From the NCBI RefSeq assembly GCF_004138125.1, contig NZ_RXHS01000015.1, positions 1 through 64,000 of the forward strand: a stretch of 64,000 nt of DNA. The letters run 5' to 3'. Positions 42,055 through 62,206 of this stretch are shown here, in pieces; within the stretch, counting starts at the first letter, position 1; each line of letters begins with the position of its first letter. This DNA is from Seramator thermalis (GTDB lineage Bacteria; Bacteroidota; Bacteroidia; Bacteroidales; Dysgonomonadaceae). Made by a program: the position numbers and the translations under genes. The notes under the pieces are model-generated. The model saw only the letters and a program-made list of their open reading frames with translations. It was not told the origin of the DNA and did no database searches.

Positions 42055-42455
42055 CAAATTACGAATTTTCGTTTTGTTTGTTCTTTTTTCTGCCGGTGTG
42101 GATATTTATTTGTACAGCGGCAAGAGTTCTGCCTTTCAGGCAGCAATGGTAGGGATGTCTTTGTCCGCAGGTCGTGACCTGCGGTTATGAAGGTTATTGC
42201 CTTTCAGGCAAAAGTGAGCCGGTGAATTGAAACTTCGACCGTGATGGATATTTCTGTATTCGAGGGTGTTTTTGGCTTGAAAAGCCGAGTTTTCACAAGG
42301 AATTGCAGGTTACCAATTTCGAATTACGAATTTCCATTCCGGTAGTTCTGGATGTAAGGTGGTAAATCGTCAAACAGAAAAATATCATAACCCCTGTGCT
42401 GCCCGGCGGCACGCTCTTTGCGCAGATCGGGTGCCCCGATGATGAGATGAGGTCG
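42055..42455 (+). repeat. Approx. 400-bp direct repeat, copy 2
   Basis: It matches 39995-40395 block by block with small insertions and substitutions. The two copies flank hdeD, the DUF6146-like gene and the receiver-domain fragment. The right end merges into the 3' part of the C39 fragment gene. Confidence 0.7.
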
Positions 42456-43013
42456 GGAAAGTAAGGGAGAAATTGATAAAATGCATAATGTAGAAGGGAT
42501 GAAAGGGAGGAGGCTCTGTAAAACGGCTTTTGCCACGATTTGCGAAAGCAAAGAGGGTAGTAAGTCGGCGACCGATTCGGAAAAAGCAGGCATTTGTTCG
42601 GAATTGAAATCCTCCATATCCTCAATATCCTCAGTTGAGGATATTGAGGATATGGCAGATTTTGGGACAGAGCCCCATTCGTTCAAGTTCAGCGTCATCG
42701 AACTTGGATGCAAGACCAAATACAGGGAACAAACTCCTGTAGTTTCCATCAGAAGTTTGCGAACATGCGTTAAGCAGGGCAGCAACGCTTTTTCTGCCGG
42801 TTTATCGAACGTGAGCCTTCCGCCGACCGTATGAAAGCCGATTTTCTCCGCCGCTTTACTGATTCCCAACATCGACACGCCTTCCCGCCCGATAAAACAG
42901 TCGTCGCGCAAATGCTCCAATGCGTATCGCTTGCCGTAATGCTCTGCAATCATGCAGATACATGCCGGGCCGCAGTCCATCGCGTCGGGTTGTAAAGTGA
43001 ATGGGAAGGGCAT
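42324..43013 (-). pseudogene. C39 peptidase 5' fragment A, followed by unrelated tail
   Basis: Residues 1-80 match the C39 domain of the complete exporter at 48428-50629, including the oxyanion Gln8 and catalytic Cys14 (QPDAMDCGPAC). The match ends after ALLPC, before the catalytic His and Asp and the whole transporter. The tail begins LTHVRKLLMETTGVCSLYLV, shared with fragment B, then runs into a palindrome and a dispersed repeat. It cannot be an active peptidase as it stands. It lies 41 bp after the TonB-type receptor gene, the same position the full C39 gene holds behind another barrel. Confidence 0.85.
42614..42655. repeat. Perfect 20-bp inverted repeat with 2-nt loop
   Basis: CCATATCCTCAATATCCTCA at 42614-42633 is exactly complementary to 42636-42655, with GT between. 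There is no T run, so it is not a standard terminator. It lies within the tail of C39 fragment A and may extrude as a cruciform. Confidence 0.9.
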
Positions 43014-43054
43014 AAGTGTTTTAAAAAGTTTAGGAACTTTTACCGATAATGAAT

Positions 43055-45679
43055 TTAGAAGTTTAAATTCATTTTTATCAGAACCTCACGGGGTCTCATG
43101 GTACGTATGGTACGTGATTTATAGAAATCTACGACATTCTCAAAAATATAATGAGTCTGATTTGTTATATTTCTTATTTCCACGCCGATATCCATCGTTT
43201 TAAATCTATATAAGACATTAAAATTCGCGAAATAGTAATTCAACTCTTTCGTACGAAAAAGGTCTTGTTTTATACCAACTTGTATATTTGAATAAGGAAA
43301 AATGTACATAGATAGCGAGTGTTGAAAATAGGATGTTGAGAAATTATTCGTTCCTTTATCGTTCCCTGCGAGTATACTATTTATATAGCTGAATTCATAT
43401 TCATTATTGAACCATTTTCGGGGTTGAATTGTCACGCGTAAATTTACTGAATAGGATTTATTGGAAAAATCAGTTTGCCGGTTTTGTACTATATACGTAT
43501 ACTTACTTCCTTTATAAAATCCATTCAGAAAGAGTTTTGTGTTCCACCAGCCAAACATCTTGGATCCGTTTATTCCAAACAGGGGAGAATACGTGTGATT
43601 TTTAGAAAACAGTGTTTCGTTTTGTTGGAACAAGTCGTCAATAAAAAAAGTTTTGTTTATTATCTGACGTTCCATGATGGAATAACCGGCTAACCCTTCC
43701 ATGAAAAAACCTTTTACAGGGTTTCTGTATGTAAGTGATAATACATATCTATGAGAAAGGCTTTGTGTTGGTTTTCCGGTGAAAGAGTTCAGGTTCCTGT
43801 AATTGATAAATATTGTTTGTGGATATAATGTTCGAATGTCTGCAATATTATCCGTCACTTGACCCTTTAAGGATAGCGTCAACCAATTCGAGGGGTAATA
43901 TTTTATCCCTGCAGATGGTAACAAATGAACGAAAGTGTACCCGCGGCGTAACGAATCCTTATTATCTATTGTTACAGATGAATGTTTTAGTAATAAATTG
44001 AAATAATAATCCATCTTATCGGATTTGTACCCTATTTGTGTTTCAACATACGAAGAGATGTTTTTGAAAGCCGCATAGTTTTCGTGATCCAAGATATCTA
44101 TTAATGCCGGTGGATGCAAGAGAGAGTTTAACCTCTGGGAGGTAAAATCAAGTCCTATATTATTTTTTATCTGATACTTGTTTCGTTGAAAGGTATATGA
44201 TACCTGATTGGAAGTAGTCATATTTTTAAATGCATATTCTTGTGTATAAGAATGCGTTTTAGATGCATCTCCTATCTGAAACGCTGCATCGTGCGATAAA
44301 ATAGCGAGCTGAGAAAGTGAGGTCGCTTCCAGACGTCCTTTTTTTCGAGGAACAACTATCCTAAAATCGTTTCGCAACAATTGCTGTGGTGAATTATATT
44401 TTTCATCAACTTCGTGACCAGAAGTAATAATTCGATTGTTTTGTACATTCCATAAAACAGTAGAAGACCATTTATTTCTCAAATAAAAGTTGTCTGCATT
44501 ATGTGTGTAAGAGAGCTCTCCGTCCAGCTTGTTTTGGGAACTATTATTCTTTTTTGATTCCTGAATAATCAATGTAGAATCTACATCCAGAACAGCTGAC
44601 TGTTCCGAATCCAACTGTTGCCTTTCTCTGTAATTCAAGTAACTAATTTGATACCTTATATTTTTATCTTCAGAAAGTTTCCATATCTGGTTGGATGTGA
44701 TAAGGTGCGAGGCATTCAATTGGTATTTCTTTTTATCCATAGGAAGAGAGGATATTATGCCTGGTTGAAACAATCCTCTCTCCACTTTTGGCATTCGTGC
44801 ATCTATGATAATCTCGGAAATAGTTGCCGGAGAAGAGAGTTCGGAAACTATATCCTCTCCGGTGTTATTGTTTTTGTACATGCTTAGATTTTGCGAATTT
44901 TTATCAAAAGACATAGCCATCAGCCTGTTATCCCAAAGAGTAAGTGGCAGTCCAATGCCAAAATCAGCCGAGAAAAGCCATCGCCGTTTTGCTTCTTCGT
45001 TTAGAACCAAGTTTATCGCAGCCTGTTCACTAAATGTTTTACCCCTCAAGCTTTTTACTGGTTCATGCTGTTGCAAAACCTCTACATTTTCCACATAATC
45101 AGCTTTCAGATTATTAGAAGCAAGTTTATATTTTTCATCAAGCAAGTCAACGCCTTCAATATAAAACTTGTTGATTGGCTCTCCTTGAAAATATATACTA
45201 CCATCATCAGTTACTCTGATACCCGGCATGTTGCGTAAAACATCGGCGATACTTCTATCTTGAGTCATTTTAAACCGGGCTACGTTATAGATTAGCGTAT
45301 CTCCCTGCTCCTTTATGGGGTGCGATACTATTTTCACTTCAGGTAATTGTATTTCGGTCGGTGTTAAAGTAACAATTGTATTTGATTTAAAGTCACGTAA
45401 TACCTGTTTTTGCTCCAAGTAGCCCAGAAAAGAAAATACGATGTATTGCCCTTCCACAATGCTTTTTTTCTTTAATTCAATGTTAAAAGTGCCTTTTTCA
45501 TCAGAATAAACATAATCTATGATGGCATCGTTTAAGTCAAGAATATATACAGATGCCCCGCTAATCCCTATTTTAGTGTTAGAATCAATAATCCGTCCTT
45601 TAAGATTTATAGTTTGGGACAAACATAAATTCAGAAAGGATAAATTGAAAAGGAGAAGTAACTCCCAACGTTTAGGCAT
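43055..45679 (-). CDS. TonB-dependent receptor-like outer-membrane protein
   Basis: The 874-residue protein has a signal peptide, a carboxypeptidase-regulatory-like domain (about 25-105: NLKGRIIDSNTKIGISGASV), a plug (about 125-215: MTQDRSIADVLRNMPGIRVT, GEPINKFYIEGVDLL) and a long barrel ending in Phe (KMNLNF). It fits the receptor-like proteins usually paired with GLPGLI proteins. The GLPGLI gene is 9 bp upstream, and a C39 fragment starts 41 bp downstream. It may import, or export, a peptide product; the substrate is unknown. Confidence 0.82.
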   Translation of the reverse strand: MPKRWELLLLFNLSFLNLCLSQTINLKGRIIDSNTKIGISGASVYILDLNDAIIDYVYSDEKGTFNIELKKKSIVEGQYIVFSFLGYLEQKQVLRDFKSNTIVTLTPTEIQLPEVKIVSHPIKEQGDTLIYNVARFKMTQDRSIADVLRNMPGIRVTDDGSIYFQGEPINKFYIEGVDLLDEKYKLASNNLKADYVENVEVLQQHEPVKSLRGKTFSEQAAINLVLNEEAKRRWLFSADFGIGLPLTLWDNRLMAMSFDKNSQNLSMYKNNNTGEDIVSELSSPATISEIIIDARMPKVERGLFQPGIISSLPMDKKKYQLNASHLITSNQIWKLSEDKNIRYQISYLNYRERQQLDSEQSAVLDVDSTLIIQESKKNNSSQNKLDGELSYTHNADNFYLRNKWSSTVLWNVQNNRIITSGHEVDEKYNSPQQLLRNDFRIVVPRKKGRLEATSLSQLAILSHDAAFQIGDASKTHSYTQEYAFKNMTTSNQVSYTFQRNKYQIKNNIGLDFTSQRLNSLLHPPALIDILDHENYAAFKNISSYVETQIGYKSDKMDYYFNLLLKHSSVTIDNKDSLRRGYTFVHLLPSAGIKYYPSNWLTLSLKGQVTDNIADIRTLYPQTIFINYRNLNSFTGKPTQSLSHRYVLSLTYRNPVKGFFMEGLAGYSIMERQIINKTFFIDDLFQQNETLFSKNHTYSPLFGINGSKMFGWWNTKLFLNGFYKGSKYTYIVQNRQTDFSNKSYSVNLRVTIQPRKWFNNEYEFSYINSILAGNDKGTNNFSTSYFQHSLSMYIFPYSNIQVGIKQDLFRTKELNYYFANFNVLYRFKTMDIGVEIRNITNQTHYIFENVVDFYKSRTIRTMRPREVLIKMNLNF

Positions 45680-45688
45680 AGATAAAAA

Positions 45689-46528
45689 CTATTTACTTAA
45701 CTCTATTGGAAGATAAGCATCTGAACGAATACCTTCTTTGCTTCTCTCCCCTGGCGTAGAAATGCCTTCAATTTTAACGCCAAGACTTTGGGCTATAAAA
45801 TTGAGAGGATCGGTTATGAAGGAGTATTGAATTTTCAGAAAATCATTTTTCGATATTTTTTGGAATCCTTTAACGTCGTAAATGATATTTTCGGGAGTCA
45901 ATAGTTGTTCAAATCCTGTAGCTTCAAAGACATAATGATTTTTTGTATCGTGTAACTTCAGGATCAGGCCTGGTAACCCACTAAATTTGTAGGGCCCATA
46001 CTTAATCGGGATCTCGGTTGTAAACCAAGCTTCGTAATTTCGTCCCATGTAAGAACATGTGGCTTTTTGGCAATTATATTTCAAAATCAACTTCTTTTCG
46101 GAAGTGATAGTCCATTGGATTGGCAATAAATCTTCTTCGTAATAATAGTTGTTTCTTCGTCCAACTAATTCATCCTGGTACGTTATCTTTCCATTTGGAT
46201 AATTCGTATACACCTTGTAGTTATTCACTCCTTTGGGAGATTCTTTAATTTTGTTCATATCGAAACTCCCGCTTTCCGTCATTTTTCTTGTATATGCATC
46301 TTTTTCATCTTTCCGTGAACTGTAAAAAACAACCGAATTTTCACCAATATCCAGATTCATAACGTCTGTAGATAAATAACTCATATCAAGTGTATCTTTT
46401 AAAGTTGTAGTTTTGTATTGGCATCGATACAAGGCTTTATCAATAACCTTTTGCGAGAAAACAGTTTGAGAAATCGGGGTTGTCACAACTATTATAGCAA
46501 TAGCTATATATAAATCATTTTTCTTCAT
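45689..46528 (-). CDS. GLPGLI family protein
   Basis: The 279-residue secreted protein has an N-terminal signal (IAIAIIVVTTPISQTVFSQ) and the family motif in KFSGLPGLILKLHDTKNHYV. GLPGLI proteins are a Bacteroidota family of unknown function that co-occur with TonB-type receptors and small peptide genes. Here the order is Cys peptide - hairpin - GLPGLI - receptor, with 9 bp between GLPGLI and receptor. The upstream hairpin probably reduces its transcription relative to the peptide. Confidence 0.9.
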   Translation of the reverse strand: MKKNDLYIAIAIIVVTTPISQTVFSQKVIDKALYRCQYKTTTLKDTLDMSYLSTDVMNLDIGENSVVFYSSRKDEKDAYTRKMTESGSFDMNKIKESPKGVNNYKVYTNYPNGKITYQDELVGRRNNYYYEEDLLPIQWTITSEKKLILKYNCQKATCSYMGRNYEAWFTTEIPIKYGPYKFSGLPGLILKLHDTKNHYVFEATGFEQLLTPENIIYDVKGFQKISKNDFLKIQYSFITDPLNFIAQSLGVKIEGISTPGERSKEGIRSDAYLPIELSK

Positions 46529-46565
46529 AATGATATAATATTAAATTAAATGAGTTGTATAAAGA

Positions 46566-46615: not shown

Positions 46616-46792
46616 TTACGGGCAAAGACTTTCCAGCGCGTTTACGGTATTAATAACATCTTCCATTGTTTCACATCCTCCTACGTTATAAGTTGCTCCA
46701 CAAGAAGTTGTAACATAAAAAGCATTCGCAGCAAAAGCAATAAATGATAATGCTGCAATCAGAATCGTTTTCTTTATATTAAACTTTTTCAT
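46616..46792 (-). CDS. Small secreted Cys-containing peptide, NVEALA-like
   Basis: A 58-codon gene encodes a Sec-type signal (KKTILIAALSFIAFAANA) and a mature peptide of about 34 residues with Cys31, Cys40 and Cys57 (TTSCGATYNVGGCETMEDV, NALESLCP). Size and arrangement resemble NVEALA-type peptides of Bacteroidota, though the NVEALA motif itself is not evident. It is the first gene of a peptide-GLPGLI-receptor unit and is followed by a strong hairpin, so it is likely the most abundant product. Confidence 0.7.
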   Translation of the reverse strand: MKKFNIKKTILIAALSFIAFAANAFYVTTSCGATYNVGGCETMEDVINTVNALESLCP

Positions 46793-47173: not shown

Positions 47174-47551
47174 CTATTTTTCAAGCAATCCGTCATAAGT
47201 TCCGTTTTCCAACATAATGCACAAGGCATAACTGCCGGCAGGCAATATTGATAGGTCGAACATGCATGCACCCGAATTGTCTATTTGAAACGATTGTTGC
47301 ACAGACCCTCCTTGTCCTGTGACCTCAACCCATGCTATTCCCGAATAATTTTCGATTTCGATCGTCAAAAAACTATCGTCGACAAAGGCATTAACTATTG
47401 AAGCGGTGGCAGATCGCGTGCCTCCGGTTCTTTTCTCAAGTTCTATTTTGTGATTGGTGCTTGCCATGCTCCCGCCATCCAAGATAACAAATGAGCACAG
47501 TCCCGAAACGACGATAATAGAAAATGCGGTTAAAATAAAGTTTCGTTTCAT
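47174..47551 (-). CDS. DUF3244-type secreted protein
   Basis: The 125-residue product has a signal peptide (FSIIVVSGLCSFVIL) and a small beta-sandwich-like domain (LTIEIENYSGIAWVEVTGQG, AGSYALCIMLENGTYDGLLE) of the DUF3244 type, which is of unknown function. It follows the HlyD gene after 223 bp and has its own promoter. Position at the end of the exporter unit suggests a link with peptide export or host-surface roles, but nothing in the sequence proves it. Confidence 0.7.
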   Translation of the reverse strand: MKRNFILTAFSIIVVSGLCSFVILDGGSMASTNHKIELEKRTGGTRSATASIVNAFVDDSFLTIEIENYSGIAWVEVTGQGGSVQQSFQIDNSGACMFDLSILPAGSYALCIMLENGTYDGLLEK

Positions 47552-47774: not shown

Positions 47775-48422
47775 TTATCTCCATCCGACCGATTGCAGGA
47801 ATTTGGTCACCAGCGGCACATCCGACAAAACGATTTTTCCTTGCAGTTCACTTTCGGGGATAAGTTTTTCCCATCGTGTTTTTTCATCAAAGGCGATACG
47901 GATTTTTCTCAAAGATGGATTGGATGAAAGAGGCAGCGGCCGAATTTCCGATACTCGACCCTGCATACTTCCCGCAACGGCATCGTCGATCAATACCTTA
48001 TCCCCTTCCTCTATTTTCGCCAAAGAAACGGCTGCAATTTCTGCTGTTCCATAAACCCGTGCCTGTTCCGGCAGGACGACAAAAAGCGTATCGCCCCTTT
48101 CTACATAATCATCGTTCTTTGCGTTCAGAATGATTTCTCCTCTGAACGCTTTCTCTGAATTTGTATTGACGGAATCAGACCATTCTTTTATCGAAACAAA
48201 CGTATTTTTGTCCGCCCGAACATATTCGGCTTGCGGAATCACTTTCACCCGGATGCGAACGGGGATTGTTTCCCGGTAAGGAATAAAAGTCGCAATCAAG
48301 AATAGAACCAACAGCGCTAACCCGATCATTAGCGTACCGTAGCGTATCCATACGGAAGGAATCTGTCCGATGATGTTCCTCACTTTCTCGCTGCGAAGCT
48401 CGATATTTTTCTTTTCTTCCAT
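47775..48422 (-). CDS. HlyD-family export adaptor, short form
   Basis: The 215-residue product carries the N-terminal segment IELRSEKVRNIIGQIP, characteristic of Bacteroidota bacteriocin-export HlyD proteins, one membrane helix (about 27-48) and a beta-rich part with a barrel-like end (FDEKTRWEKLIPESELQGKI). The lipoyl halves and the long coiled-coil hairpin of full HlyD proteins (about 400 residues) are missing or very short. ATG 48422 is chosen; it follows the exporter stop by 5 bp, so the two are coupled. It should bridge the inner-membrane exporter and an outer-membrane channel. Confidence 0.78.
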   Translation of the reverse strand: MEEKKNIELRSEKVRNIIGQIPSVWIRYGTLMIGLALLVLFLIATFIPYRETIPVRIRVKVIPQAEYVRADKNTFVSIKEWSDSVNTNSEKAFRGEIILNAKNDDYVERGDTLFVVLPEQARVYGTAEIAAVSLAKIEEGDKVLIDDAVAGSMQGRVSEIRPLPLSSNPSLRKIRIAFDEKTRWEKLIPESELQGKIVLSDVPLVTKFLQSVGWR

Positions 48423-48427
48423 CACGA

Positions 48428-50629
48428 TCAATTTCCCAGTTCAAGTTGATTTCTCACCAATTCGTAATACTTGCCTTTCCCCCTTGTCAGGTCGGTATGC
48501 GAACCGGTCTCGACAATTCTTCCGCCGTCGAGCACAACAATTTGATCGGCATTTTTTACTGTGCTTAATCGATGAGCCACCACAACAACCGTTTTTCCTT
48601 CATAAAAATCGGAAAGATTTTCTACGATGGCTTTTTCGTTGTTGGCATCCAACGAATTGGTTGCCTCGTCGAGAAGGACAATTCGCGGATTCTTATACAC
48701 AACGCGCGCAATGAGGATGCGTTGTCGTTGTCCCTGACTGATACCCTGTCCGTCCTGACCGATCTTCGTGTTGTATCCCAACGGAAGCTCCTCGATATAC
48801 TCCGCAATATTGGCTACACGGGCAGCATGGCGCAACTGTTTCAGATCGATTTCATCGTCCGATACGGCAATGTTGCGGGCAATCGTGTCCGAAAACAGAT
48901 ATCCTTCCTGCATTACCGCACCACACTGACTGCGCCACCACGACAAGCTGAACTCCGATAAATTTTCCTTCCCCACATAAATATTCCCTTCGTTGGGATT
49001 ATAGAAACCGAGTAACAATTTTATCAACGTGGTTTTTCCGCTGCCGCTGGCTCCCACAATTGCCGTTACCTTGTTCTGAGGAATCGTCAGATTGATGTTG
49101 TTCAGCACGTAGTCAGGTCGCGCTCCATCGTATTTGAAACAAAGATCTTGGATCCGTATCCCGCAATCGCCGTCCGAAAGCGTCGCTATATGGCGGTTTT
49201 CGTCTTCTTCGTTCTGTTGGGTATGGATTTCGTTCATGCGGTCGAGGCTGATGCTCACATCCTGCCATTGATAGATAAAACCCATAAGCTGTTCCACCGG
49301 ACTGTTCAATTGTCCGATGATATACTGAACGGACAACATCATGCCCAAAGTCAGATTGCCGTTGATTACGGCCGTAGCAGCGAGGACGGTTACCAGCATA
49401 TTTTTCAGCTCGTTGATGAAGATGCCGCCTGCTTCCTGGTTTTGCCGGAGATTGAGCGATTGCATGTTTACGTCGAACAGGTCGGCCTGCACATCTTCCC
49501 ATTCCCAGCGTTTGCGCTGTTCGCAGCCTTGCAGTTTGATTTCCTGCATGCCGGTAATCAGTTGATATACCACATTGCGGTTGAGACCTTGCTGCTCGAA
49601 CATCTTATAATCCAACACACGTCTTTTTTTCAGAAAGATCATGATCCATGCGCCATAGAGGATGCTGCCGACAATAAATACGAGGAAGATGGGAACGTTG
49701 TAGATAAACAGGACAATGGAGAAGATAATGAAGGTGAATACCGAAAAAATAACGGAAATCGTCTGGTTGGTCAGGAAATTTTCGATGCGACGATGGTCTT
49801 CGATACGTTGCAGCAAATCGCCCGTAAGTTTGGTGTCGAAAAATTTCATCGGCAGTTTCATCAGCTTGATGAAGAAATCGGATATGAGCGAAACATTGAT
49901 GCGGGTGCTGATGTGCAGCAGAATTTTGCGCCGGATGAAATCGATCGCCGTGCGGCTGAACAACAGCATCATCTCGGCAAGGAGCACCAGCCAGATAAAA
50001 TGAATATCTTTGCCGCTGATGCCGGTGTCCACGATGGCCTGTGTGAGAAACGGGAAAATAAGCTGCAGGATGCTGCCGATGAACAATCCCAATATCAACT
50101 GCCCGAAAAAACGCTTGTATTTCAACAGGTAACTACCGAGAAATTTTACGCGGTTTTTCGAGCGTAGTTGATCGCCTTCCTGTTCATAGAACAATTGGGT
50201 CGGTTCCAAAAGCAAAGCCACCCCTTTTTCTTCGCCACCCGTTTGTGTGCTGACCCAGTGGTCGCAGAACTCTTCCTGGGTATAGGTGATCAATCCTTTT
50301 CCGGGATCGGCAACATATACTTCATACCCTTTCCTTTTTTTCTTGATATCGTAAACCACCACAAAGTGATCCTGATTCCAATGCACGATGCAGGGCAGTA
50401 ATGCCTTCCCTGCCAGTTTATCGAATGTGAGCCTTCCGCCGACCGTATGAAAGCCGATTTTCTCCGCTGCTTTGCTAATCCCCAACATCGACACGCCTTC
50501 CCGCCCGATAAAACAGTTGTCGCGCAAATGCTCCAATGCGTATTGCTTGCCGTAATGCTCTGCAATCATGCAGAGGCATGCCGGACCGCAGTCCATCGCG
50601 TCAGGTTGTTTGGTGAATGGGAAGGACAT
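48428..50629 (-). CDS. C39 peptidase-containing ABC exporter (double-glycine peptide transporter)
   Basis: The 733-residue protein cleaves double-glycine leaders and exports the peptide. The C39 domain (1-140) has Gln8, Cys14 (MDCGPAC), His88 (NQDHFVVV) and Asp108 (VADPGKG). The membrane domain (about 165-440) has six helices. The ATPase (about 480-733) has Walker A GASGSGKTT, signature ISQGQRQRI, Walker B IVLLDEAT and the H-loop AHRLST. It is the only complete C39 gene in the window. A barrel gene ends 12 bp upstream and HlyD follows. Confidence 0.95.
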   Translation of the reverse strand: MSFPFTKQPDAMDCGPACLCMIAEHYGKQYALEHLRDNCFIGREGVSMLGISKAAEKIGFHTVGGRLTFDKLAGKALLPCIVHWNQDHFVVVYDIKKKRKGYEVYVADPGKGLITYTQEEFCDHWVSTQTGGEEKGVALLLEPTQLFYEQEGDQLRSKNRVKFLGSYLLKYKRFFGQLILGLFIGSILQLIFPFLTQAIVDTGISGKDIHFIWLVLLAEMMLLFSRTAIDFIRRKILLHISTRINVSLISDFFIKLMKLPMKFFDTKLTGDLLQRIEDHRRIENFLTNQTISVIFSVFTFIIFSIVLFIYNVPIFLVFIVGSILYGAWIMIFLKKRRVLDYKMFEQQGLNRNVVYQLITGMQEIKLQGCEQRKRWEWEDVQADLFDVNMQSLNLRQNQEAGGIFINELKNMLVTVLAATAVINGNLTLGMMLSVQYIIGQLNSPVEQLMGFIYQWQDVSISLDRMNEIHTQQNEEDENRHIATLSDGDCGIRIQDLCFKYDGARPDYVLNNINLTIPQNKVTAIVGASGSGKTTLIKLLLGFYNPNEGNIYVGKENLSEFSLSWWRSQCGAVMQEGYLFSDTIARNIAVSDDEIDLKQLRHAARVANIAEYIEELPLGYNTKIGQDGQGISQGQRQRILIARVVYKNPRIVLLDEATNSLDANNEKAIVENLSDFYEGKTVVVVAHRLSTVKNADQIVVLDGGRIVETGSHTDLTRGKGKYYELVRNQLELGN

Positions 50630-54424: not shown

Positions 54425-54429
54425 AAAAA

Positions 54430-54464
54430 AATATTTAAAAGTAACGGACAATATATCCGTTACT
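54430..54464 (-). terminator. Attenuating terminator between precursor and radical SAM gene
   Basis: On the minus strand AGTAACGGA and TCCGTTACT form a perfect 9-bp stem with a 7-nt loop (arms 54456-54464 and 54440-54448), followed by TTTAAATATTTTTTT. It sits between the precursor stop and the maturase start, so it should allow high precursor and low enzyme expression. Confidence 0.85.
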
Positions 54465-54485: not shown

Positions 54486-54656
54486 TTAATCAACTTCTCG
54501 AGAAGCACTACCTCCTCCTAAAGCTAGCTGACAACATGATGCACATTTTTCTTCACTAAGTTGATCAGTCACTCCTCCTTTAATTTCTTCGAGTTGGAAT
54601 TCCTTAATCACTTCTAAGTCTTTTATAAAATCTTTGTTTTTAATATTTTCTTTCAT
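54486..54656 (-). CDS. RiPP precursor peptide with double-glycine leader and C-x2-C-C core
   Basis: The 56-residue peptide has a charged leader ending FQLEEIKGG (Gly27-Gly28), matching the GG-leader precursors of Bacteroidales and the specificity of C39 peptidases. The predicted 28-residue core carries Cys38, Cys41 and Cys42 (EEKCASCCQLALGGGSAS). The start at 54656 is chosen because the longer frame from 54722 adds a basic stretch atypical of leaders. It is followed by a terminator and then a radical SAM/SPASM enzyme, barrel, C39 exporter and HlyD. Confidence 0.8.
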   Translation of the reverse strand: MKENIKNKDFIKDLEVIKEFQLEEIKGGVTDQLSEEKCASCCQLALGGGSASREVD

Positions 54657-54754
54657 AATTATATTTATTAGAACATTTTCTACTCGTCTCGCTTTTCGAA
54701 TCCGCGTCCATTGTTCTTTCATACAGCAACCCGATGATCGGTTTCGGGGGAAAT

Positions 54755-55072: not shown

Positions 55073-55267
55073 TCACAGCGTCTTGATTTCCACGATTCGT
55101 CCACCGCTGTCTCTCCTTACCCAAACCGGCCTTCCGTCGATATAAATAAGTTCCCATTCCTCTTCATCGGCGTTCGCAGTCCCACCTTGCAACGCAGCCA
55201 TAGCTGTGTTTGTCATCAAATCCTGCTGCGGCTCAAACAGGTTGTCGGTGCATGTTGTCTTTTCCAT
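55073..55267 (-). CDS. Second double-glycine leader peptide
   Basis: The 64-residue peptide has a leader ending AALQGG (Gly28-Gly29) and a 35-residue acidic-then-basic core (ANADEEEWELIYIDGRPVWV, RRDSGGRIVEIKTL) without Cys. It fits a substrate of the C39 exporter. The single Cys6 is in the leader. ATG 55267 is chosen over 55303. A damaged copy lies at 61796-61991. A C39 fragment gene ends 81 bp upstream and a TCTAA repeat array lies in between. Confidence 0.7.
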   Translation of the reverse strand: MEKTTCTDNLFEPQQDLMTNTAMAALQGGTANADEEEWELIYIDGRPVWVRRDSGGRIVEIKTL

Positions 55268-55329
55268 ACGATTCGAAATTTTTTCAGGTTTATGTTGTGT
55301 CAAAATTGGGATGTTTTTCCGAGACAGTC

Positions 55330-55369
55330 TCTAACAAACGTCTAATATTTATCTAACCAATCTAACCAA
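55330..55369. promoter_or_regulatory. TCTAA direct-repeat array, candidate regulator site 1
   Basis: TCTAACAAA (55330), TCTAATATT (55341), TCTAACCAA (55352) and TCTAACCAA (55361) start at intervals of 11, 11 and 9 bp, close to one helical turn, as in direct-repeat sites of OmpR-type regulators. The array lies 63 bp upstream of the double-glycine peptide start. An identical arrangement precedes the two-component genes. Confidence 0.55.
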
Positions 55370-55774
55370 AACAGCTGAATTATGAAAATTTAACTGAAAA
55401 ATGAGGCGTTCAAATTTTAAGACCGGGAAAATTTTCCGCTCGTTCGAGTTCAGCGTCATCGAACTTGGATGCAAGACCAAATACAGGGAACAAACTCCTG
55501 TAGTTTCCATCAGAAGTTTGCGAACATGCGTTAAGCAGGGCAGCAACGCTTTTTCTGCCAGTTTATCGAATGTGAGCCTTCCGCCGACCGTATGAAAGCC
55601 GATTTTCTCCGCTGCTTTGCTAATCCCCAACATCGACACGCCTTCCCGCCCGATAAAACAGTTGTCGCGCAAATGCTCCAATGCGTATTGCTTGCCGTAA
55701 TGCTCCGCAATTATGCAGAGGCATGCCGGACCGCAGTCCATCGCGTCAGGTTGGTGGATAAATGGGAAGGACAT
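55349..55774 (-). pseudogene. C39 peptidase 5' fragment B
   Basis: Residues 1-80 match the complete C39 domain (QPDAMDCGPACLC, ending KALLPC), keeping Gln8 and Cys14. The frame then enters the same unrelated tail as fragment A (LTHVRKLLMETTGVCSLYLV). His, Asp and the transporter are missing. It starts 13 bp after a barrel gene, as the full C39 gene does at 50629. The shared junction shows that fragments A and B derive from one truncated ancestor. Confidence 0.85.
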
Positions 55775-55787: not shown

Positions 55788-58196
55788 TTATTTCATTCTT
55801 TCTTCAATGCTTTCAATACCTGTATTTCTTTTCCTCGATTGCTTCACTTTATCTGAACCTAAATTATAAGTAAAAGAAATTCTTAATATTCTCATATCCG
55901 GAATAATATGACTCGTTGCATCAATATTTTTGTATTTTAAGACAGATTTAAACTGATTCCATCTAAAAGGATCCTGAAGAGATATTGAAAGATTCCCTTT
56001 ACGGTTACATAATGTTTTTTGTAAAGTCAGATCCAAACTACCCATCCTATCTATTTTTGTAGCAATATTCCGATTTGAAGAAGACAAAAAGCCATTCAAT
56101 TCTAATTTTATGCCATTATTAATTATGAATTGATTATTGATCTGAAAACTTCCGTTAAAAAACGAAAGATTAAAATCATCTCCCATAAATCGGGACTTAT
56201 AATCTCTATAATAGCCATTCCCATTAAAATTTAAATTCCACCACTTTGAAATCCTAAAGGGTACATTTAATAAAACAGCATAAATTTTTGCTGATCCGAA
56301 GTTTTTATAGGTATAACTAAACTCTTGACTTTCATCATTCTGAAAAGGTTCCTGTATAAATAATCCGTCATATTCACTATATGATAATGTAACAAAGAAT
56401 CTGCGTTGATTATATTGTAATTGTATGTTATGCACATAGGAAGGACTAAGGTCCGGATTGCCCTCTGTATATGTATTTGGTGAAGTATAAAATTTAAATG
56501 GATTGAGCATACTGAAAGAAGGTCGATTAATTTTATACGTATAAGATAGTGATAAAAATTGGTTATTTTTGAACAGGTATTGCAAAGATGCCGAAGGGAA
56601 TACATCGAAATAGTGATGCGAAAAACTACTATCATTAGCCATTTGATACCCATTTTGATAAGTTTGTTCTCCACGTAAACCGATAGATGCGTTGAAATCC
56701 GTCCATTTTTTAGATAAGTTAAAATATAATGCGGCTATTTGTTCTTTGTAAGTAAAATTATTTGACATGGAATTTTGTTCTTCCCAGCTATCTTTATTTA
56801 AAACGAATTCCAAAAGATCATTATTTCTTTTTATTTGGCTAAATTGTGCTCCTGTTTCAATACGACCATTTCCTAAAAATGTACTTTCGTAATCCGTTTT
56901 TATAACCCAAGCGTCACTCTTTTGAAAGACATTATGTCCTTTCCCTTTTTGAGGATGTAAAATTTCATTGTTGGCGTCATAATAATTAAGAACCATCTTT
57001 TGCTCTTGAGAATGGTCTGCGTAAGAATAAACTATGTCCGAATTCAATACTTTATTAGAATCAATAATCCACTTATGATTCAAATCGAAAGAATACATTT
57101 TTGAATCAATATCCATATTTATGGGGGAAATAATACTCGAATCAATATCGGAAGACCCAATTTTTTTTATAAAAGTTGTAGAACGATTTGTATTGCCTCC
57201 ATTATATAAATTGGTGTTCGATAAAAAACCTATAGTATGGATAGGCGAAATAAAAAAATCAACACCAAATCTCGCATATTGATTGGTTCCACTTGGTTTG
57301 TATAAACTATGTTCGTCATATTCAATAGGAGGCGCTAGACTCATGAATTTTCTTTGCTCGGAAATTTTTTGTTCATACCGGCCATTGTTCAACCCATATA
57401 TACCATAGATATTAAATTTCTTGGATTGAAAATTCAAATTTACAGTCGGCATATAAACCAATCCCGTGCTTTTTATTCCTAATGCCATAGATAACGATCC
57501 GTTATATCCTAATGATTTGTCTTTTTTCAGCTTAATATCAATAATCGCACCGGAATATCCTGCATCGTAACGCGATGGCGGATTTGTAATAATTTCTATG
57601 CTCTCAATCCGATCTCCCGGCAAGTTATTTAAAATACCATTTACGCTCGTTCCTGTTATATCTGCCGGTTTTCCGTTTATATAAATAACAGCATCCTTAC
57701 CAATTACAGATATTTGATTGTCCAAAGTGACAACCACACCCGGAAGATATTTAATAATATCAAATGCTTTTTTCCCCACAGTAAGCATAAAAGAATTTAC
57801 GGCCACTATTATTCGATCAGATTTTTGCTGTATAGGCGGGAGCGTTCCTTCTACTACAATTTCTTGTAATTCAATATTATTTTCTTCTAACGGAATAATA
57901 CCCAGGTCTACATCTCTGTCTATTTTCAAAGTTAGATGTTTACTACGATATCCAACCATGCGAGCTTCTACCCTATAATCATCCGGCTGGATATCATTTA
58001 ACTTAAAGTTCCCATTTTTATCCGTTATGCAACCTTTAAGTAACGTTGAATCTGAATCATAGATAATTATAGTTACGAAATCTAAGGGCATTTTTGTTTT
58101 TTCCTCTATTACTTTTCCGGTTAAAGAATATTGACAGAGCAAATAGAAGGGGAAAAATAATAAATCAATGGATACCATTAAAAAAAACTTTCTCAT
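55788..58196 (-). CDS. Outer-membrane barrel receptor, OMP_b-brl_3 type
   Basis: The 802-residue protein begins with a signal peptide (SIDLLFFPFYLLCQ), then a carboxypeptidase-regulatory-like domain (about 25-100: SLTGKVIEEKTKMPLDFVTI), a plug (about 140-215: AFDIIKYLPGVVVTLDNQIS) and an OMP_b-brl_3-type barrel (FTYNLG near the end). It is 66 bp downstream of the truncated leader repeat, with no peptide gene in between, and 13 bp upstream of C39 fragment B. It is related to but clearly diverged from the other two barrels of this type. Confidence 0.82.
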   Translation of the reverse strand: MRKFFLMVSIDLLFFPFYLLCQYSLTGKVIEEKTKMPLDFVTIIIYDSDSTLLKGCITDKNGNFKLNDIQPDDYRVEARMVGYRSKHLTLKIDRDVDLGIIPLEENNIELQEIVVEGTLPPIQQKSDRIIVAVNSFMLTVGKKAFDIIKYLPGVVVTLDNQISVIGKDAVIYINGKPADITGTSVNGILNNLPGDRIESIEIITNPPSRYDAGYSGAIIDIKLKKDKSLGYNGSLSMALGIKSTGLVYMPTVNLNFQSKKFNIYGIYGLNNGRYEQKISEQRKFMSLAPPIEYDEHSLYKPSGTNQYARFGVDFFISPIHTIGFLSNTNLYNGGNTNRSTTFIKKIGSSDIDSSIISPINMDIDSKMYSFDLNHKWIIDSNKVLNSDIVYSYADHSQEQKMVLNYYDANNEILHPQKGKGHNVFQKSDAWVIKTDYESTFLGNGRIETGAQFSQIKRNNDLLEFVLNKDSWEEQNSMSNNFTYKEQIAALYFNLSKKWTDFNASIGLRGEQTYQNGYQMANDSSFSHHYFDVFPSASLQYLFKNNQFLSLSYTYKINRPSFSMLNPFKFYTSPNTYTEGNPDLSPSYVHNIQLQYNQRRFFVTLSYSEYDGLFIQEPFQNDESQEFSYTYKNFGSAKIYAVLLNVPFRISKWWNLNFNGNGYYRDYKSRFMGDDFNLSFFNGSFQINNQFIINNGIKLELNGFLSSSNRNIATKIDRMGSLDLTLQKTLCNRKGNLSISLQDPFRWNQFKSVLKYKNIDATSHIIPDMRILRISFTYNLGSDKVKQSRKRNTGIESIEERMK

Positions 58197-58261: not shown

Positions 58262-58360
58262 TCGTCATCTTTGCAGCGCCTCTCAATCCCTTCCGGATTT
58301 TTCCGCCAGCAGACGGAAGAAAAGTTTCAATTCTGATGGATGGGCTTGCTCCTTGCAAGG
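58262..58360 (+). repeat. Hairpin-bearing leader repeat, truncated copy 3
   Basis: It matches the first 100 bp after the -7 box in copies 1 and 2 (TTTGCAGCGCCTCTCA, GATGGATGGGCTTGCTCCTT). The -7 is degraded to CATCTTTG and the first hairpin is imperfect. At about 58360 it switches abruptly into C39 coding sequence, a recombination junction. Confidence 0.75.
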
Positions 58361-58564
58361 GAGCCTTCCGCCGACCGTATGAAAGCCGATTTTCTCCGCC
58401 GCTTTGCTAATCCCCAACATCGACACACCTTCCCGCCCGATGAAACAGTTGTCGCGCAAATGCTCCAAAGCGTATTGCTTGCCGTAATGCTCTGCAATCA
58501 TACAGACACATGCCGGACCGCAGTCCATCGCGTCGGGTTGATAAATGATAACAAATCTTCTCAT
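58283..58564 (-). pseudogene. C39 peptidase 5' fragment C, fused to leader repeat
   Basis: Residues 1-68 match the C39 domain (QPDAMDCGPACVC to VGGRL) with Gln and Cys present. The reading frame then runs antisense through the leader repeat and stops. No His or Asp is present. It starts 6 bp after the 58571-60904 barrel gene. The N-terminus (MRRFVIIY) differs from the other copies, so the 5' end is of different origin. Confidence 0.85.
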
Positions 58565-58570: not shown

Positions 58571-60904
58571 CTAAAAAGTAGCAGCATCCTTGTCCTCATT
58601 GATTAATGTACGGTTGACCTTGTAATCTTTGCCTTTGTTGAAATTCCAACTAAAGCCAATGACGAACATCGATTTATTATCCCGGATTTTGGTTTCTTTT
58701 CGATGATATACCAGGCTGCCGGGGACCGTTTCATTATGATAACGTGAAGGAGTAAACATCCAAAGCATACCTGCCGTGAGAGACCAGTTTTGATTGTGAT
58801 TATAGCGGGCAATAAAATGGGATTGATTTTCATCGCGTATCAAATACGCTCCTTGCAAACTCCTCGAAGTGAAGCGATATTGATAAGAAAGCATCCACTT
58901 TTTTGTTTGAATAATCGTTTCAACATCCACGGGTATATACCAGTTAAAGATATTCCCGACAAGATTACTTTTCACTTGCTCACGAAAAAATTGTGCGGAT
59001 GTTTTAATCGAAAATATATCCTTTCCGAAAGGTTTGAATTGTCCTGAAAGATAACCTCCATATTGCTTCCCATACGCAGCATTTTCTTTTGTGAGCGCGA
59101 TATAATTATTACCGCCGTCTTCTGTAAAATATTGATGGATGGGTTTGTCGGTATATGAATATAAAAGGGCAGCATTCAAGTTCAATAAACGATGGTTTAA
59201 CGTGTACATGAGTGCCGTAATAGTTTGAGTAGCATTCACCAATAAAGGATTGCCTTTCGAAATAATATCCGATGTGATTACTTGCGCATTATTACTCAAA
59301 TCGGAAACCGAAGGCAGTTCCGTGTCCCGAGTAAAAAGCAGACGAATCGTGTTGCGATCGTTGATTTGATAGCCTGCCAATATCTGAGGTGTAAAAACAA
59401 ATTGATTGTAATCGTTGGAATAACTTTTTTCCATCACATATTTTCCCCCTAAACTTAACCGATAAAGATATTTATTTTTCATCCCGGATATTTCACTATA
59501 TAGATAATGTTCGATATAATGCGACCGGTAATCAAAAGAACCCAACAAATTGTCGATATCCGAATCGAGCCAACCGGCATCCATTTTGTAGCCTGAATTC
59601 CAATTGGTGAAGTTCATTTTTTTAGTATAAGCTACTTCGCCGATAAGCGACCGTTTACGGTTTTCGAGATTCATTTTATCTTCCAGCGTTTGCAATAGGT
59701 CGGGTTGCAGATATTCGTATACCTTGTTATTCACAGATGTGCGAAACATCGTTCCTACCAGGTTTATAGATATTTCACCTCGCTCTTTCGACAGCCCTTT
59801 CCAAAAATACATATCGATTACCGGGCTGAAAATACGAGTTTTGTTATCATTCGTTCCGTAATACAATTCTTTATGATCACCGAACGTATTTGTTATGTCG
59901 GAATATCCATTTGAAAAGCGGTTTTCGAAATTCGGTTTGAAAGCAATCTGAAAAATATAGCGATCGATCATTTGATTGGTATATTTCAACCCTAGCGTAT
60001 TTGTTGCGTATCCGAATTTATCTTTTCGAAAATACTGACTCTCGCGAACTTCATCCTTCAGTGTATAACGATATAATTCGTTGCTTTCCCTTTTCCGGTA
60101 ATTCCGATAGTTGAGAGCGTATTCAATGGATAACTGATTGCGGCCCTTATTGTAGGCAAAATAAGCATTGTCGTTGGCAAATCCGGTGGTAAAGGCATGT
60201 GACAAATCCAATCCTACGCCATAGCCGTTGTTCAGCGAACGAGTAATGATATTGACGACGGCTCCAACACCCGCATAACGGGCAGGGGGAAAATCGTAAT
60301 ATTCTACCCGCAATACCTTGTCCGGAGGCAGCATTTTAAGTTCATTATCCGTTGCTGTGGCCCCATTTACAAGAATAAGCAAAGAACCTCCTTTCATCGA
60401 TTTAATCTTTTGCGATTGAGCATCTACCGTAAGTTCGGGAAGTTTAGCAAGTAAATCCTTCGAGTAACGGGCCGATTTTATATCCTGCATCGTAAAAGTA
60501 TAGCTTGCATGATCAATATATTGATGACGAAACTGTCCTTCGACAACCACTTCCGAAAGCTGTTTGCTGTCGGGTTCCAAGGTATAATTTCTAATCAGCA
60601 TATCTCCACTCGACGGCATCACAATGCGAATCGGCTGCGATAAAGTTTTGTACCCGATGCATGAAATCACGATCCGATAACTTCCCGTTTCCAAGTGTCC
60701 GAACAGGTAATTGCCTTTTAAATCGCTTACCGTACCGGCAATCATTTCTGTGGAGTCTGCTTCACTGTAAAGCACGATGTTGGCAAATTCGATAGGAACG
60801 GTTTTGCCATTATTTGATGAAGAAATTATGCCTTGCAGCTGTACCTGCGAAAATATATTTTCAACCATGGTAAAGAACAATGCGAGTATATAAAGATGTT
60901 TCAC
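58571..60904 (-). CDS. Outer-membrane barrel receptor, OMP_b-brl_3 type
   Basis: The 777-residue protein has a signal peptide, a carboxypeptidase-regulatory-like domain (about 24-110: QLQGIISSSNNGKTVPIEFA), a plug-like domain (about 140-220: DLLAKLPELTVDAQSQKI, PPARYAGVGAVVNI) and a barrel (FVIGFSWNFNKG near the C-terminus). It follows a separate plug-only gene by 54 bp and precedes C39 fragment C by 6 bp. It is probably the channel or receptor of a further peptide unit. Confidence 0.82.
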   Translation of the reverse strand: MKHLYILALFFTMVENIFSQVQLQGIISSSNNGKTVPIEFANIVLYSEADSTEMIAGTVSDLKGNYLFGHLETGSYRIVISCIGYKTLSQPIRIVMPSSGDMLIRNYTLEPDSKQLSEVVVEGQFRHQYIDHASYTFTMQDIKSARYSKDLLAKLPELTVDAQSQKIKSMKGGSLLILVNGATATDNELKMLPPDKVLRVEYYDFPPARYAGVGAVVNIITRSLNNGYGVGLDLSHAFTTGFANDNAYFAYNKGRNQLSIEYALNYRNYRKRESNELYRYTLKDEVRESQYFRKDKFGYATNTLGLKYTNQMIDRYIFQIAFKPNFENRFSNGYSDITNTFGDHKELYYGTNDNKTRIFSPVIDMYFWKGLSKERGEISINLVGTMFRTSVNNKVYEYLQPDLLQTLEDKMNLENRKRSLIGEVAYTKKMNFTNWNSGYKMDAGWLDSDIDNLLGSFDYRSHYIEHYLYSEISGMKNKYLYRLSLGGKYVMEKSYSNDYNQFVFTPQILAGYQINDRNTIRLLFTRDTELPSVSDLSNNAQVITSDIISKGNPLLVNATQTITALMYTLNHRLLNLNAALLYSYTDKPIHQYFTEDGGNNYIALTKENAAYGKQYGGYLSGQFKPFGKDIFSIKTSAQFFREQVKSNLVGNIFNWYIPVDVETIIQTKKWMLSYQYRFTSRSLQGAYLIRDENQSHFIARYNHNQNWSLTAGMLWMFTPSRYHNETVPGSLVYHRKETKIRDNKSMFVIGFSWNFNKGKDYKVNRTLINEDKDAATF

Positions 60905-60958: not shown

Positions 60959-61693
60959 TTATTTCTTATAAGGTTTCAAACTGATGAGTTTATAGTCGGG
61001 GGCAATTGCTTCTTTTCCTTTCAAAAGCCGAATATTCACCACACCATCGTACGCCGAATCGTCGAAGCAGGACAAATCGTAATAATCTATGCTTCTCACC
61101 ACGCCTGCAACCGGATATCCTTTCAACTTCGCAAAAGCAGAGCCATCAATGTTCATACCGTTTATCATCAGGCGTACCGAACCACCATTTTTGGTCATAA
61201 TATCGTTGTCGACAATCTCCAAATTCGGCAATTTTTGAATCATCCTTTCAATGGTCATATTTTTTTCACCAGAGATACTTTCGGGCGAGAACGACTGTTT
61301 TTTCACCGGATTGTTGTAATTCTTATCCACTTGCAATCGTGTGTGCGTACTCAGGTTTCCACTCTTTACGCGTCCATTGTTCGGACGTGTAATAAAGGAT
61401 TGTTCTTCGATGCCCGGAGCTTTAACTTTCACGATGTAAGTGTTATCGGTACTGAATCCTTTCAAATCGAAACTCCCGTCCAATGCCGAAATTCGCGTGG
61501 CAAGGGTTTTCGAAGGATTATTAACGTCATAAAATCGCACCGTTGCAAACGGTATCATAGTTTGCTTACCGGTATTGTCATCTTCGATATATACATGTCC
61601 GGCAAAAAATATGGAATTTTGGGCATATGTGGTCCAGGTTGTTAAAACGAATATTAGCAGAGCTAAAGAGATAGTTATTTTTCTCATATTCAT
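60959..61693 (-). CDS. Plug-only, barrel-less receptor-like protein
   Basis: The 244-residue secreted protein has a signal peptide (ISLALLIFVLTTWTTYAQ), a carboxypeptidase-regulatory-like domain (about 30-115: IPFATVRFYDVNNPSKTLAT) and a plug-like domain (about 140-230: MIQKLPNLEIVDNDIMTKNG, NGMNIDGSAFAKLKG), then stops where the barrel would start. No frameshift remnant of a barrel is seen in the 54 bp before the next gene. It may be a soluble accessory plug or a truncated receptor. Confidence 0.65.
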   Translation of the reverse strand: MNMRKITISLALLIFVLTTWTTYAQNSIFFAGHVYIEDDNTGKQTMIPFATVRFYDVNNPSKTLATRISALDGSFDLKGFSTDNTYIVKVKAPGIEEQSFITRPNNGRVKSGNLSTHTRLQVDKNYNNPVKKQSFSPESISGEKNMTIERMIQKLPNLEIVDNDIMTKNGGSVRLMINGMNIDGSAFAKLKGYPVAGVVRSIDYYDLSCFDDSAYDGVVNIRLLKGKEAIAPDYKLISLKPYKK

Positions 61694-61795
61694 TTACATT
61701 ATAATGATTCTTTAATTTTTGCCTCGAATAAGTTTGCAAATCCAATTTCGGTTATTCTTACATAAAAGACGTTATTCAACGTTCTGTTAGGATGA

Positions 61796-61991
61796 TCACA
61801 GCGTCTTGATTTCCACGATTCGTCCACCGCTGTCTCTCCTTAACCCAAACCGGCCTTCCGTCGATATAAATAAGTTTTCATTCCTCTTCATCGGCGTTCG
61901 CAGTCCCACCTTTCACCGCAGCCGTAGCTGTGTTTGTCATCAAATCCTGCTCCGGTTCGAACAGGTTGTCGGTGCATGTTGTCTTTTCCAT
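61796..61991 (-). pseudogene. Double-glycine peptide pseudogene
   Basis: This copy of the 55073-55267 peptide starts MEKTTCTDNLFEPEQDLM and keeps a Gly-Gly (AAVKGGTANADEEE). The Trp codon after DEEE is a TGA stop, and an extra A further on shifts the frame, so the core is lost. A leader peptide ending just after the GG could still be translated. Confidence 0.8.
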
Positions 61992-62053
61992 ACGATTCGA
62001 AATTTTTTCCGGTTTACAAGGGGTCAAAGTTGGGGCTTTTATTTGAAACCCTT

Positions 62054-62093
62054 TCTAACAAACGTCTAATATTTGTCTAACCAATCTAACCAA
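62054..62093. promoter_or_regulatory. TCTAA direct-repeat array, candidate regulator site 2
   Basis: TCTAA words start at 62054, 62065, 62076 and 62085, the same 11-11-9 spacing as at 55330-55369. The array lies between the peptide pseudogene and the divergent histidine kinase, about 115 bp upstream of the kinase -7 box, where an autoregulated response regulator might bind. Confidence 0.55.
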
Positions 62094-62206
62094 AACGGCT
62101 GAATTACGAATATTTAACTAAAAATTGATATCTTTCCTCATTTCAAAAACAGGGAAAAAATTCAATTAATCCATCATACATGAAACGCTTTTCGGTTTTT
62201 TCTTCC

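Follow-up and report, generated by a model that had tools for sequence, protein, structure and literature searches.

Integron arrays hold ordered, portable cassettes beside a fixed anchor. In the accessible part of one report, orphan toxin modules of the Rhs/CDI type carry a repeat of 522 bp with 95% identity, which lets recombination swap the expressed module (PMC3967940). For the pneumococcal blp region, the accessible text proposes recombination at short common sequences and describes the exporter genes as often not full length (PMC4860687). TonB-receptor-related proteins have been predicted to export graspetides, according to the portion of the source available (PMC8939145).

A peptide-export locus of Seramator thermalis was analysed in a window of 64,000 nucleotides (positions 1-64000 of contig NZ_RXHS01000015.1; assembly size 2.98 Mb). 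The locus contains small peptides, modifying enzymes, barrels and one C39 peptidase/ABC exporter, and an original prediction had described it as a repeated unit of peptide, accessory gene, barrel and C39 gene. The comparisons reported below support interchangeable peptide/modifier/barrel cassettes at the 5′ end of one exporter gene, and it is likely that this is a peptide-export locus with cassette exchange, in which the C39 5′ end and, in some lineages, a leader sequence serve as the arms. The cassettes of the window are named units A to D by their barrels; L numbers denote loci or contigs, mostly of relatives, and G numbers the genomes of relatives. Members of the host family among these relatives include Proteiniphilum, Petrimonas and Dysgonomonas. 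All features of the locus lie on the minus strand unless marked otherwise.

One complete exporter gene and three copies of its 5′ end

A search of the whole assembly with Pfam Peptidase_C39 (E ≤ 0.001) identified four C39 places and no fifth. One was a frame of 737 aa, and the others were frames of 94, 147 and 253 aa, so only one C39 gene is complete, as predicted. The complete gene (48428..50629; 733 aa) is the sole full-length C39 frame that the search detected. The C39, ABC_membrane and ABC_tran domains (PF03412, PF00664 and PF00005) scored above cut-off in one chain, which is the PCAT architecture. The exporter is predicted to export and cleave GG-leader peptides; the peptide of unit C (pepC) carries LEEIKGG by eye.

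The four barrels (A, 58571..60904; B, 55788..58196; C, 50642..52942; D, 43055..45679) were present at the coordinates first given for them, all on the minus strand. A C39 start follows each barrel stop within the 6-41 bp originally noted: the distance to the C39 ATG is 41 bp in unit D, 12 bp in unit C (the full gene), 13 bp in unit B and 6 bp in unit A. The three incomplete copies, here called stumps, are stump 1 (42324..43013; C39 homology ~42774-43013, then a foreign tail), stump 3 (55349..55774; homology ~55535-55774, then a foreign tail in common with stump 1) and stump 4 (58283..58564; homology ~58366-58564, running into a leader copy at 58366). The stumps were 91-96% identical to the full gene over common blocks of 180-262 bp. 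In the alignment of the four C39 starts that had been proposed as a check, identity to the full gene over the first 170 bp was 91.8, 96.5 and 87.1%. The stumps retain the Cys motif of C39 and break off ahead of its His and Asp motifs; we take these three motif residues to be the catalytic triad.

In stumps 1 and 3, long frames continue into foreign sequence. The C39 homology ends near bp 240, and the foreign tail beyond this point is identical in 96 of 100 bases. Because the truncation point and the ~100 bp tail coincide, the two stumps are best read as copies of one truncation event. The prediction that each insertion left a stump therefore oversimplifies the history. Stump 3 is a mosaic: it agrees with the full gene at every position of bp 70-220 and is identical to stump 1 over bp 221-240 (runs test, 20 informative sites, 2 runs, P = 1.1e-4). 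This pattern fits what recombination predicts. In a tree of C39 5′ ends, the four window copies and the stump of L055 formed one group with 0.994 support; the row G044_full was not C39 (wrong strand) and was ignored.

Cassettes beside the exporter in related genomes

A comparison with related genomes, also proposed as a check, showed that the barrels of Tannerella change place beside the exporter. In ATCC 43037 the order is stump, peptide, radical SAM, barrel P and full C39, with the first stump following a non-barrel gene. In OH1426 it is radical SAM, barrel P, stump, barrel X, barrel Y and full C39, and in S17M_Sa_42 (S17M) it is barrel X, barrel Y, stump, peptide, radical SAM, barrel Q and full C39. 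Barrel P, which stands at the full exporter of ATCC 43037, is found at a stump in OH1426. The pair X-Y takes the place next to the full exporter in OH1426; in S17M it is followed by a stump, and barrel Q precedes the full exporter. Positions 8562-11775 of ATCC 43037 match 74-3287 of OH1426 at 96.4%, with homology stopping 63 bp into C39, and positions 3432-8270 of OH1426 match 568-5405 of S17M at 95.0%, with homology stopping 74 bp into C39. The exporter and its downstream flank are 91-95% identical among all three. Barrel Q is 50% identical to barrel B of the window.

The pairwise ratio of non-synonymous to synonymous substitution rates (dN/dS) between displaced and adjoining barrel copies in Tannerella was 0.14 for P, 0.17 for X and 0.20 for Y, with open frames; the reference values were 0.15 for HlyD and 0.04-0.06 for C39. 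The low ratios and open frames make long neutral drift of the displaced barrels less likely, and thus argue against it, though the displacement may be recent.

A further comparison was provided by L055, a contig binned as Petrimonas sp. STE_125 (the same contig as L096). It matches window positions 41005-42295 at 97.0% and 41996-43013 at 90.9%, the second match reaching the stump ATG, and it has the same stump and tail. The gene at this stump is of the barrel C type (29% identical to barrel C, cut by the contig end) and is not barrel D. Junction repeats of ~340-560 bp are present between cassettes in L045, L104, L202 and L203.

Unit D was found in two genomes that kinship places in another genus. 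Window positions 43035-46972 were 87.9% identical over 3,947 alignment columns in G080 and G077, with the match starting inside the leader and ending 20 bp past the barrel stop, before the stump. The barrel D copy in these genomes is 86% identical. A DPP-like protein (at 37313, named by eye) is only 61-63% identical in G080/G077. Given 87.9% DNA identity against 61-63% identity of the DPP-like protein, and the sharp edges, we take the comparison to establish that unit D moved between genera. G080 and G077 are not among the 47 of 101 genomes with a C39 N-terminus at E ≤ 1e-12.

A family-wide DNA search with unit C and with units A+B, in which two candidates were scored per genome, found no near-identical copy in another genus; the best matches reached 70% (305 bases) and 69% (2.3 kb). 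In G001, the other genome of the host genus (83% complete), there was no C39, and the kinases were distant ones only. At the protein level, relatives of barrel B precede full C39 genes in L076 and L072, and a relative of barrel D (27% identity) precedes a full C39 in L077. Barrels at 52-53% identity to barrel A stand ahead of C39 in L069 (Balneicella halophila) and L079 (a Tenacibaculum-binned contig). The C39 behind these barrels is read in two frames in L069 and is cut by the contig end in L079. The plug-only protein is kept beside barrel A in L069 and L079, and is frameshifted in G098.

Distribution of stumps

Internal 5′ stumps were identified in 14 assemblies, that of the window included, under at least five family labels; this number comes from several looks and is not a rate. 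The stump-bearing sequences include Proteiniphilum sp. X52 (two contigs), UBA5382, G048, G044, L055, three Tannerella, STCSWMC_109 (two stumps, one tail), L090, G352, G183 and G316, with G452 counted as OH1426 (identical place). In G352, G183 and G316, the stump follows a gene that is not recognised as a barrel; G316 is a single-contig genome, and its exporter reads in three frames. The stumps are longer in L090, G104 and G316, where the His motif is kept, and G352 keeps the Asp motif too.

Contig-end cuts (G052:C7, G052:C15, G043:C38, G043:C4, G040:C320, L079, G522) and frameshifted full or near-full genes (G018:C23, G306, G012:C56, G005:C179) were dropped from the stump count. Short C39 frames that were decayed, distant or unclear were left uncounted (L165 (G101:C214), L168, L169, L171, L172, L173, L206, L111), and further short frames stood outside the count (G466, G315, G487, G269, the cut frame G090:C90, G502:C243, G505, G507, G515, G517:C151, G517:C152, G524:C265, G101:C147). 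L172 (G073:C110) belongs to a more distant C39 class and has two short N-terminal frames, at 9762-10025 and (by eye) 12890-13282.

A recurrence control was performed on 80 loci picked by C39-domain likeness, 71 of which had a C39 frame of at least 400 aa; only 52 loci had at least 5 kb upstream. In 8 of the 71, a further match to the first 300 bp of C39 lay upstream in the same orientation; none had one downstream, and none had one in antisense. The middle piece of C39 recurred in 1/71 (L119, in a second exporter gene) and the 3′ piece in 0/71. The firm count of stumps is 6/71 (L065, L067, L071, L072, L090 and L091, the last with a stop inside). Because the recurrence of the C39 5′ end is one-sided, the stump arrangement is beyond chance.

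A leader element upstream of the cassettes

A conserved leader of ~120 nt precedes cassettes in several genera. The genome's own copies lie at 46938-47057 (copy a, the upstream edge of unit D), 54807-54926 (copy b, the upstream edge of unit C) and 58247-58366 (copy c, joined directly to stump 4), with a further one on contig 5 at L042:9487-9606 (-). A covariance model (R1) was built from these four copies and L076, and 44 sources were scanned. Copies a, b and c, which are source sequences of the model, scored 148, 151 and 134 bits. Further copies were found at E ≤ 0.006 in L050, L044, L052 (=L066), L049, L104 and L045, all on the cassette strand and upstream of the first cassette gene; matches at E 0.4-0.69 (L057, L077, L204) were left uncounted.

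The 101 genomes contained 12 occurrences of a 20-base pattern of the leader core and none of its reverse. The leader copies of the window differ from the pattern by one base, and some of the 12 coincide with places matched by R1. Eight sites stand before a peptide gene, 1 before a radical SAM gene, 1 before a GLPGLI gene and 2 inside other genes. The identification of the leader as a known RNA was rejected, as Rfam gave no match at gathering and only chance-level ones at E 0.17 and 0.69. Both bases of one outer-helix pair are changed in 4/11 rows, and inner helices are present in 5/11 rows; the covariation thus partly supports a leader structure. The model excludes a 15-base leader match in L208, which lies immediately ahead of a group II intron.

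On contig 5, L042:7805-11969 carries a TPR-like protein, a DUF3244 paralogue (94%), the leader and then an open reading frame with a MACPF domain (28.4 bits, cut-off 21.5). A MACPF domain is also a feature of the secreted antimicrobial proteins of Bacteroidales. Since the sites precede peptide, radical SAM, GLPGLI and MACPF genes, the leader marks a set of secreted-product genes, and it is also one end of the common homology of unit D. In part of these lineages it lies at the upstream edge of the cassettes.

Proposed explanation and alternatives

Sequence comparison documents swapped barrels with matching flanks, homology ending in the C39 5′ end, a mosaic stump and the transfer of unit D; the route, the order of events, export in trans and peptide function are what we infer. 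The right-hand arm would be the first 60-240 bp of the C39 gene (longer in some relatives), and the left-hand arm, in this host and several relatives, the ~120 bp leader just upstream of the first gene. A cassette would hold a small precursor peptide and a modifier, which is radical SAM or GLPGLI here and ATP-grasp in relatives; in most cases it would also hold a barrel resembling TonB receptors, with its stop almost at the exporter start. Incoming DNA of a relative would recombine homologously with the C39 5′ end, or with copies of stump and leader. The unit that had stood next to the exporter would then be pushed upstream, with the old C39 start remaining as a stump, and the same repeats could later permit deletion or exchange. 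Displaced units may remain useful, either through export by the one intact exporter or through protection of the cell, and the peptides may act against, or signal to, other bacteria.

Several observations weigh against this explanation. Units A and B are without an intact peptide, and displaced units may be partly dead; of the originally predicted repeated unit, the recurrence of barrel and C39 start was borne out, and its peptide component was not for these two. Unit D lies behind the exporter, a position that a simple insert-in-front model does not explain. The part of the prediction that stated interchangeable cassettes joined to the exporter 5′ end is supported by Tannerella and L055, and the part that had all of them inserted in front is not. 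Insertion and deletion are not distinguishable in any genome pair. The pairs show swaps at the C39 5′ end, as one-after-another insertion would produce, but a deletion between stump and full gene would give the same pairs, and the order of events is not polarised. The sample consists of species representatives only. Of the 8 upstream recurrences in the control, that of L119 is due to a second exporter gene and that of L117 to a remnant of 36 bp. True decay of C39 exists: contig C81 of ATCC 43037 (L168) and G043:C38 (L059) join the C39 start to an internal piece of the gene. Several reading frames are needed to cover the exporters of G316 and L069, and unit A of G098 is frameshifted, its barrel showing 67-69% protein identity. 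The L055 stump gives a weak mosaic signal (21 sites, 6 runs, P = 0.012), and the contig itself was probably put in the wrong bin and comes from a close relative of the window host, because the DPP-like protein of its assembly (G040) is 69% identical to that of the window while the flank is 97% identical; the comparison stands with this caveat. The R1 leader was absent at E ≤ 0.006 from the Tannerella, L090, L202 and L203 loci. Inspection by eye of the genes named in the 20 kb block showed no recombinase, and no systematic search for one was made.

Of the alternatives, the one that survives best is that complete peptide/barrel/exporter units once stood in tandem and that all exporters but one decayed by deletion, with recombination keeping their starts alike. 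It would account for the likeness of C39 starts within a genome, the internal-deletion remnants in L168 and L059, the second C39 gene near the first in L119 (frame of 330 aa) and G103, which has several long C39 frames at separate places. We consider it improbable. It is the 5′ end that survives: one row begins beyond residue 8 (G043:C4), at most 270 bases from the contig start, and the one such row of a second C39 search (G522) is cut by the contig end. The stumps of one genome have a truncation point and tail in common (window stumps 1/3, X52 and STCSWMC_109), and the Tannerella pairs differ by clean cassettes. Duplication of whole units followed by divergence was rejected, since barrels B and C are 22% identical against 87-97% between the C39 starts.

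Site-specific or transposon-like insertion, in which the leader or the Cys-motif region of C39 would be the attachment site of an unseen recombinase, as in integrons, is very improbable. The sharp edges of unit D, the partly supported closing helix of the leader and the fact that both Tannerella comparisons differ at the exporter-proximal end would suit it. Against these stand truncation points that vary between lineages from ~60 to 390 bp, the mosaic stump, which fits homologous recombination, and a set of named genes across the 20 kb that, judged by eye, includes no recombinase. Ordinary gene decay with a chance neighbourhood of TonB-type barrels and C39 genes could draw on the incomplete units A and B, the broken pepX copy at 61745-62125 and the frameshifted unit A of G098, but it is hardly credible, being contradicted by the one-sided recurrence control (8 upstream, 0 downstream, 0 antisense), the recurrence of stumps in 14 assemblies under at least five family labels and the constraint on displaced barrels.

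Beyond the exchange of cassettes at this locus, the arrangement could represent Bacteroidales-wide, exporter-anchored cassette arrays in which the C39 5′ end is a standing entry point, with the leader as the other arm in some lineages, new peptide weapons or signals are gained beside the exporter, and older ones are kept upstream in order as a trans-exportable archive that recombination can recall. We regard this wider reading as somewhat unlikely.

Organisation of the locus and further observations

Along the direction of transcription, the gene order is a broken pepX block, plug A, barrel A, stump 4, leader c, barrel B and stump 3; then pepX, leader b, the GG peptide, radical SAM/SPASM, barrel C, the full C39 gene and a short HlyD gene; and finally DUF3244, leader a, a small peptide, GLPGLI, barrel D and C39 stump 1. 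The accessory genes are of the four kinds originally described, namely a radical SAM/SPASM gene (Pfam), a GLPGLI gene (TIGR01200), none and a plug-only protein. No family model matched plug A, pepX or the small peptides; the remaining proteins belong to known families.

Read by eye, unit C alone forms a complete cassette with a GG peptide next to the exporter. Its peptide, pepC (54486..54722), has an open frame and a GG motif by eye. Its start is probably the ATG at 54656, because the codons further upstream are common to an unrelated open reading frame on contig 5. It is followed by the radical SAM/SPASM peptide maturase (52958..54451; PF04055 + PF13186) and the exporter-proximal barrel C (OMP_b-brl_3). 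The short HlyD-type adaptor (47775..48431; PF13437) overlaps the exporter stop, and an HlyD-type gene adjoins the exporter in many relatives.

Unit D lies downstream of the exporter and HlyD and has its own head of DUF3244 and leader. The DUF3244 protein (47174..47551; PF11589) has a 94% identical paralogue on contig 5. The small peptide (46616..46792) has a Sec-type signal by eye and a 93% identical counterpart in G077 and G080; it reads as a Sec-type precursor and not as a GG-leader type. The GLPGLI protein (45689..46528) matched TIGR01200 at 195 bits (cut-off 50), and barrel D matched CarbopepD_reg_2 at 31.5 bits and Plug at 20.0 bits, both below the Pfam cut-off.

In units A and B, both barrels matched OMP_b-brl_3, and no peptide or modifier is left in unit B. 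The plug-only partner of barrel A (60959..61693) had no Pfam match, a weak likeness to the N-terminus of barrel A and a low-confidence structure model. The AlphaFold2 model of barrel B was a plugged beta-barrel (pLDDT 82), with PhuR as the best PDB match (E = 6e-22, TM-score 0.56 by query length). Barrel B is thus predicted to have the fold of a TonB-dependent transporter, which does not imply a direction of transport. Speculatively, retained barrels without a peptide would fit a role in immunity or as receptors.

The head of the locus carries pepX (intact copy, 55073..55303), a GG peptide, and the broken second pepX block (61745..62125), which is 91% identical to 55022-55402. A divergent histidine kinase is encoded at 62180..63622 on the plus strand (PF02518, 84 bits). 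A divergent histidine kinase and response regulator also head the locus in L052 (by Pfam) and, by eye, in L049 and L076. Relatives of pepX were observed beside them at L049:13680-13874, L052:5210-5404 and L076:2602-2790. On this gene neighbourhood, pepX is a candidate pheromone for the divergent histidine kinase.

TIGR04149 (GG-Bacteroidales radical SAM RiPP precursors) did not match the peptides at 54486-54722, 46616-46792 and 55073-55303; among 6 peptides of relatives, 3 scored 17-22 bits (cut-off 25) and 3 had no match. Graspetide maturases were identified above cut-off in L202 (TIGR04192, 287 bits; TIGR04193, 260 bits) and L203 (TIGR04192, 258 bits), and such a cassette is not in the window. 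Within a unit of the GLPGLI/barrel D type, positions 413-2056 of L051 encode a protein of 547 aa that combines C39-like and vitamin K epoxide reductase domains. A single 930-aa frame at L050:5081-7873 has reverse transcriptase, group II maturase and radical SAM domains, and is probably an intron inserted in a radical SAM gene.

Two small plasmids of Prevotella corporis, L267 and L268 (NZ_CP118017.1, NZ_CP118018.1), have Rep and a mobilization protein with GLPGLI and barrel D-like genes and no C39; they are possible carriers of cassettes. L269 (OY726044.1), a 5.67 kb "circular plasmid" of Phocaeicola massiliensis with a DUF3244-like open reading frame, a peptide and a C39 fragment, was rejected as an excised circle. 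An assembly break is as likely, since another record of that species, OY725986.1 (98 kb), begins within a copy of the fragment at 97%. No relative was found among viral contigs. Dispersed intergenic repeats were observed at 39659-42471 and also on contig 5, and the tail of stump 1 runs into them. An Rfam group II intron match was present at 5186-5259 (+).

Significance and comparison with known systems

If true, the proposed exchange shows how Bacteroidales renew their secreted peptides while one exporter stays. Such arrays would be recognisable by a simple sequence mark, a C39 5′ stump that follows a barrel or another gene of a cassette, and stumps and leader together would lead to precursor peptides and modifiers that may be overlooked or split by cluster-mining tools. 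The role of the barrel, as exit, receptor or immunity factor, would become testable, as the barrel travels with the peptide and the exporter stays.

Most protein parts of the locus belong to known families, and exporter 5′ stump cassette arrays were not found described. The literature search, with most subscription literature outside it, found no description of an exporter 5′ stump series or of the leader. Unlike integrons, the locus has variable breakpoints; no integrase or common att site was noticed by eye, with no systematic recombinase search made. We know of no barrels in the pneumococcal blp region. The blp immunity region is similar in that variable bacteriocin sets stand there beside a GG-leader exporter and a quorum signal with its kinase, whereas a series of exporter 5′ stumps, one per set, is not described in the accessible part of that report (PMC4860687). 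Radical SAM RiPP, graspetide and bacteroidetocin clusters of Bacteroidales likewise have GG-leader peptides, SPASM or ATP-grasp maturases and C39-type exporters, and the accessible parts of the sources make no mention of exporter stumps, displaced cassettes or the leader for them (PMC10352776, PMC8939145, PMC6671954).

The Rhs/CDI orphan modules, as far as the accessible part of the source describes them (PMC3967940), also combine one intact delivery gene with displaced fragments that carry a short stretch of it, and at the present locus, too, the displaced modules were found to carry homology arms to the active gene. In those systems, the displaced part is the 3′ toxin end, located downstream. 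Here, the cassette lies mostly upstream with the exporter 5′ end, and its cargo is a separate peptide, modifier and barrel.

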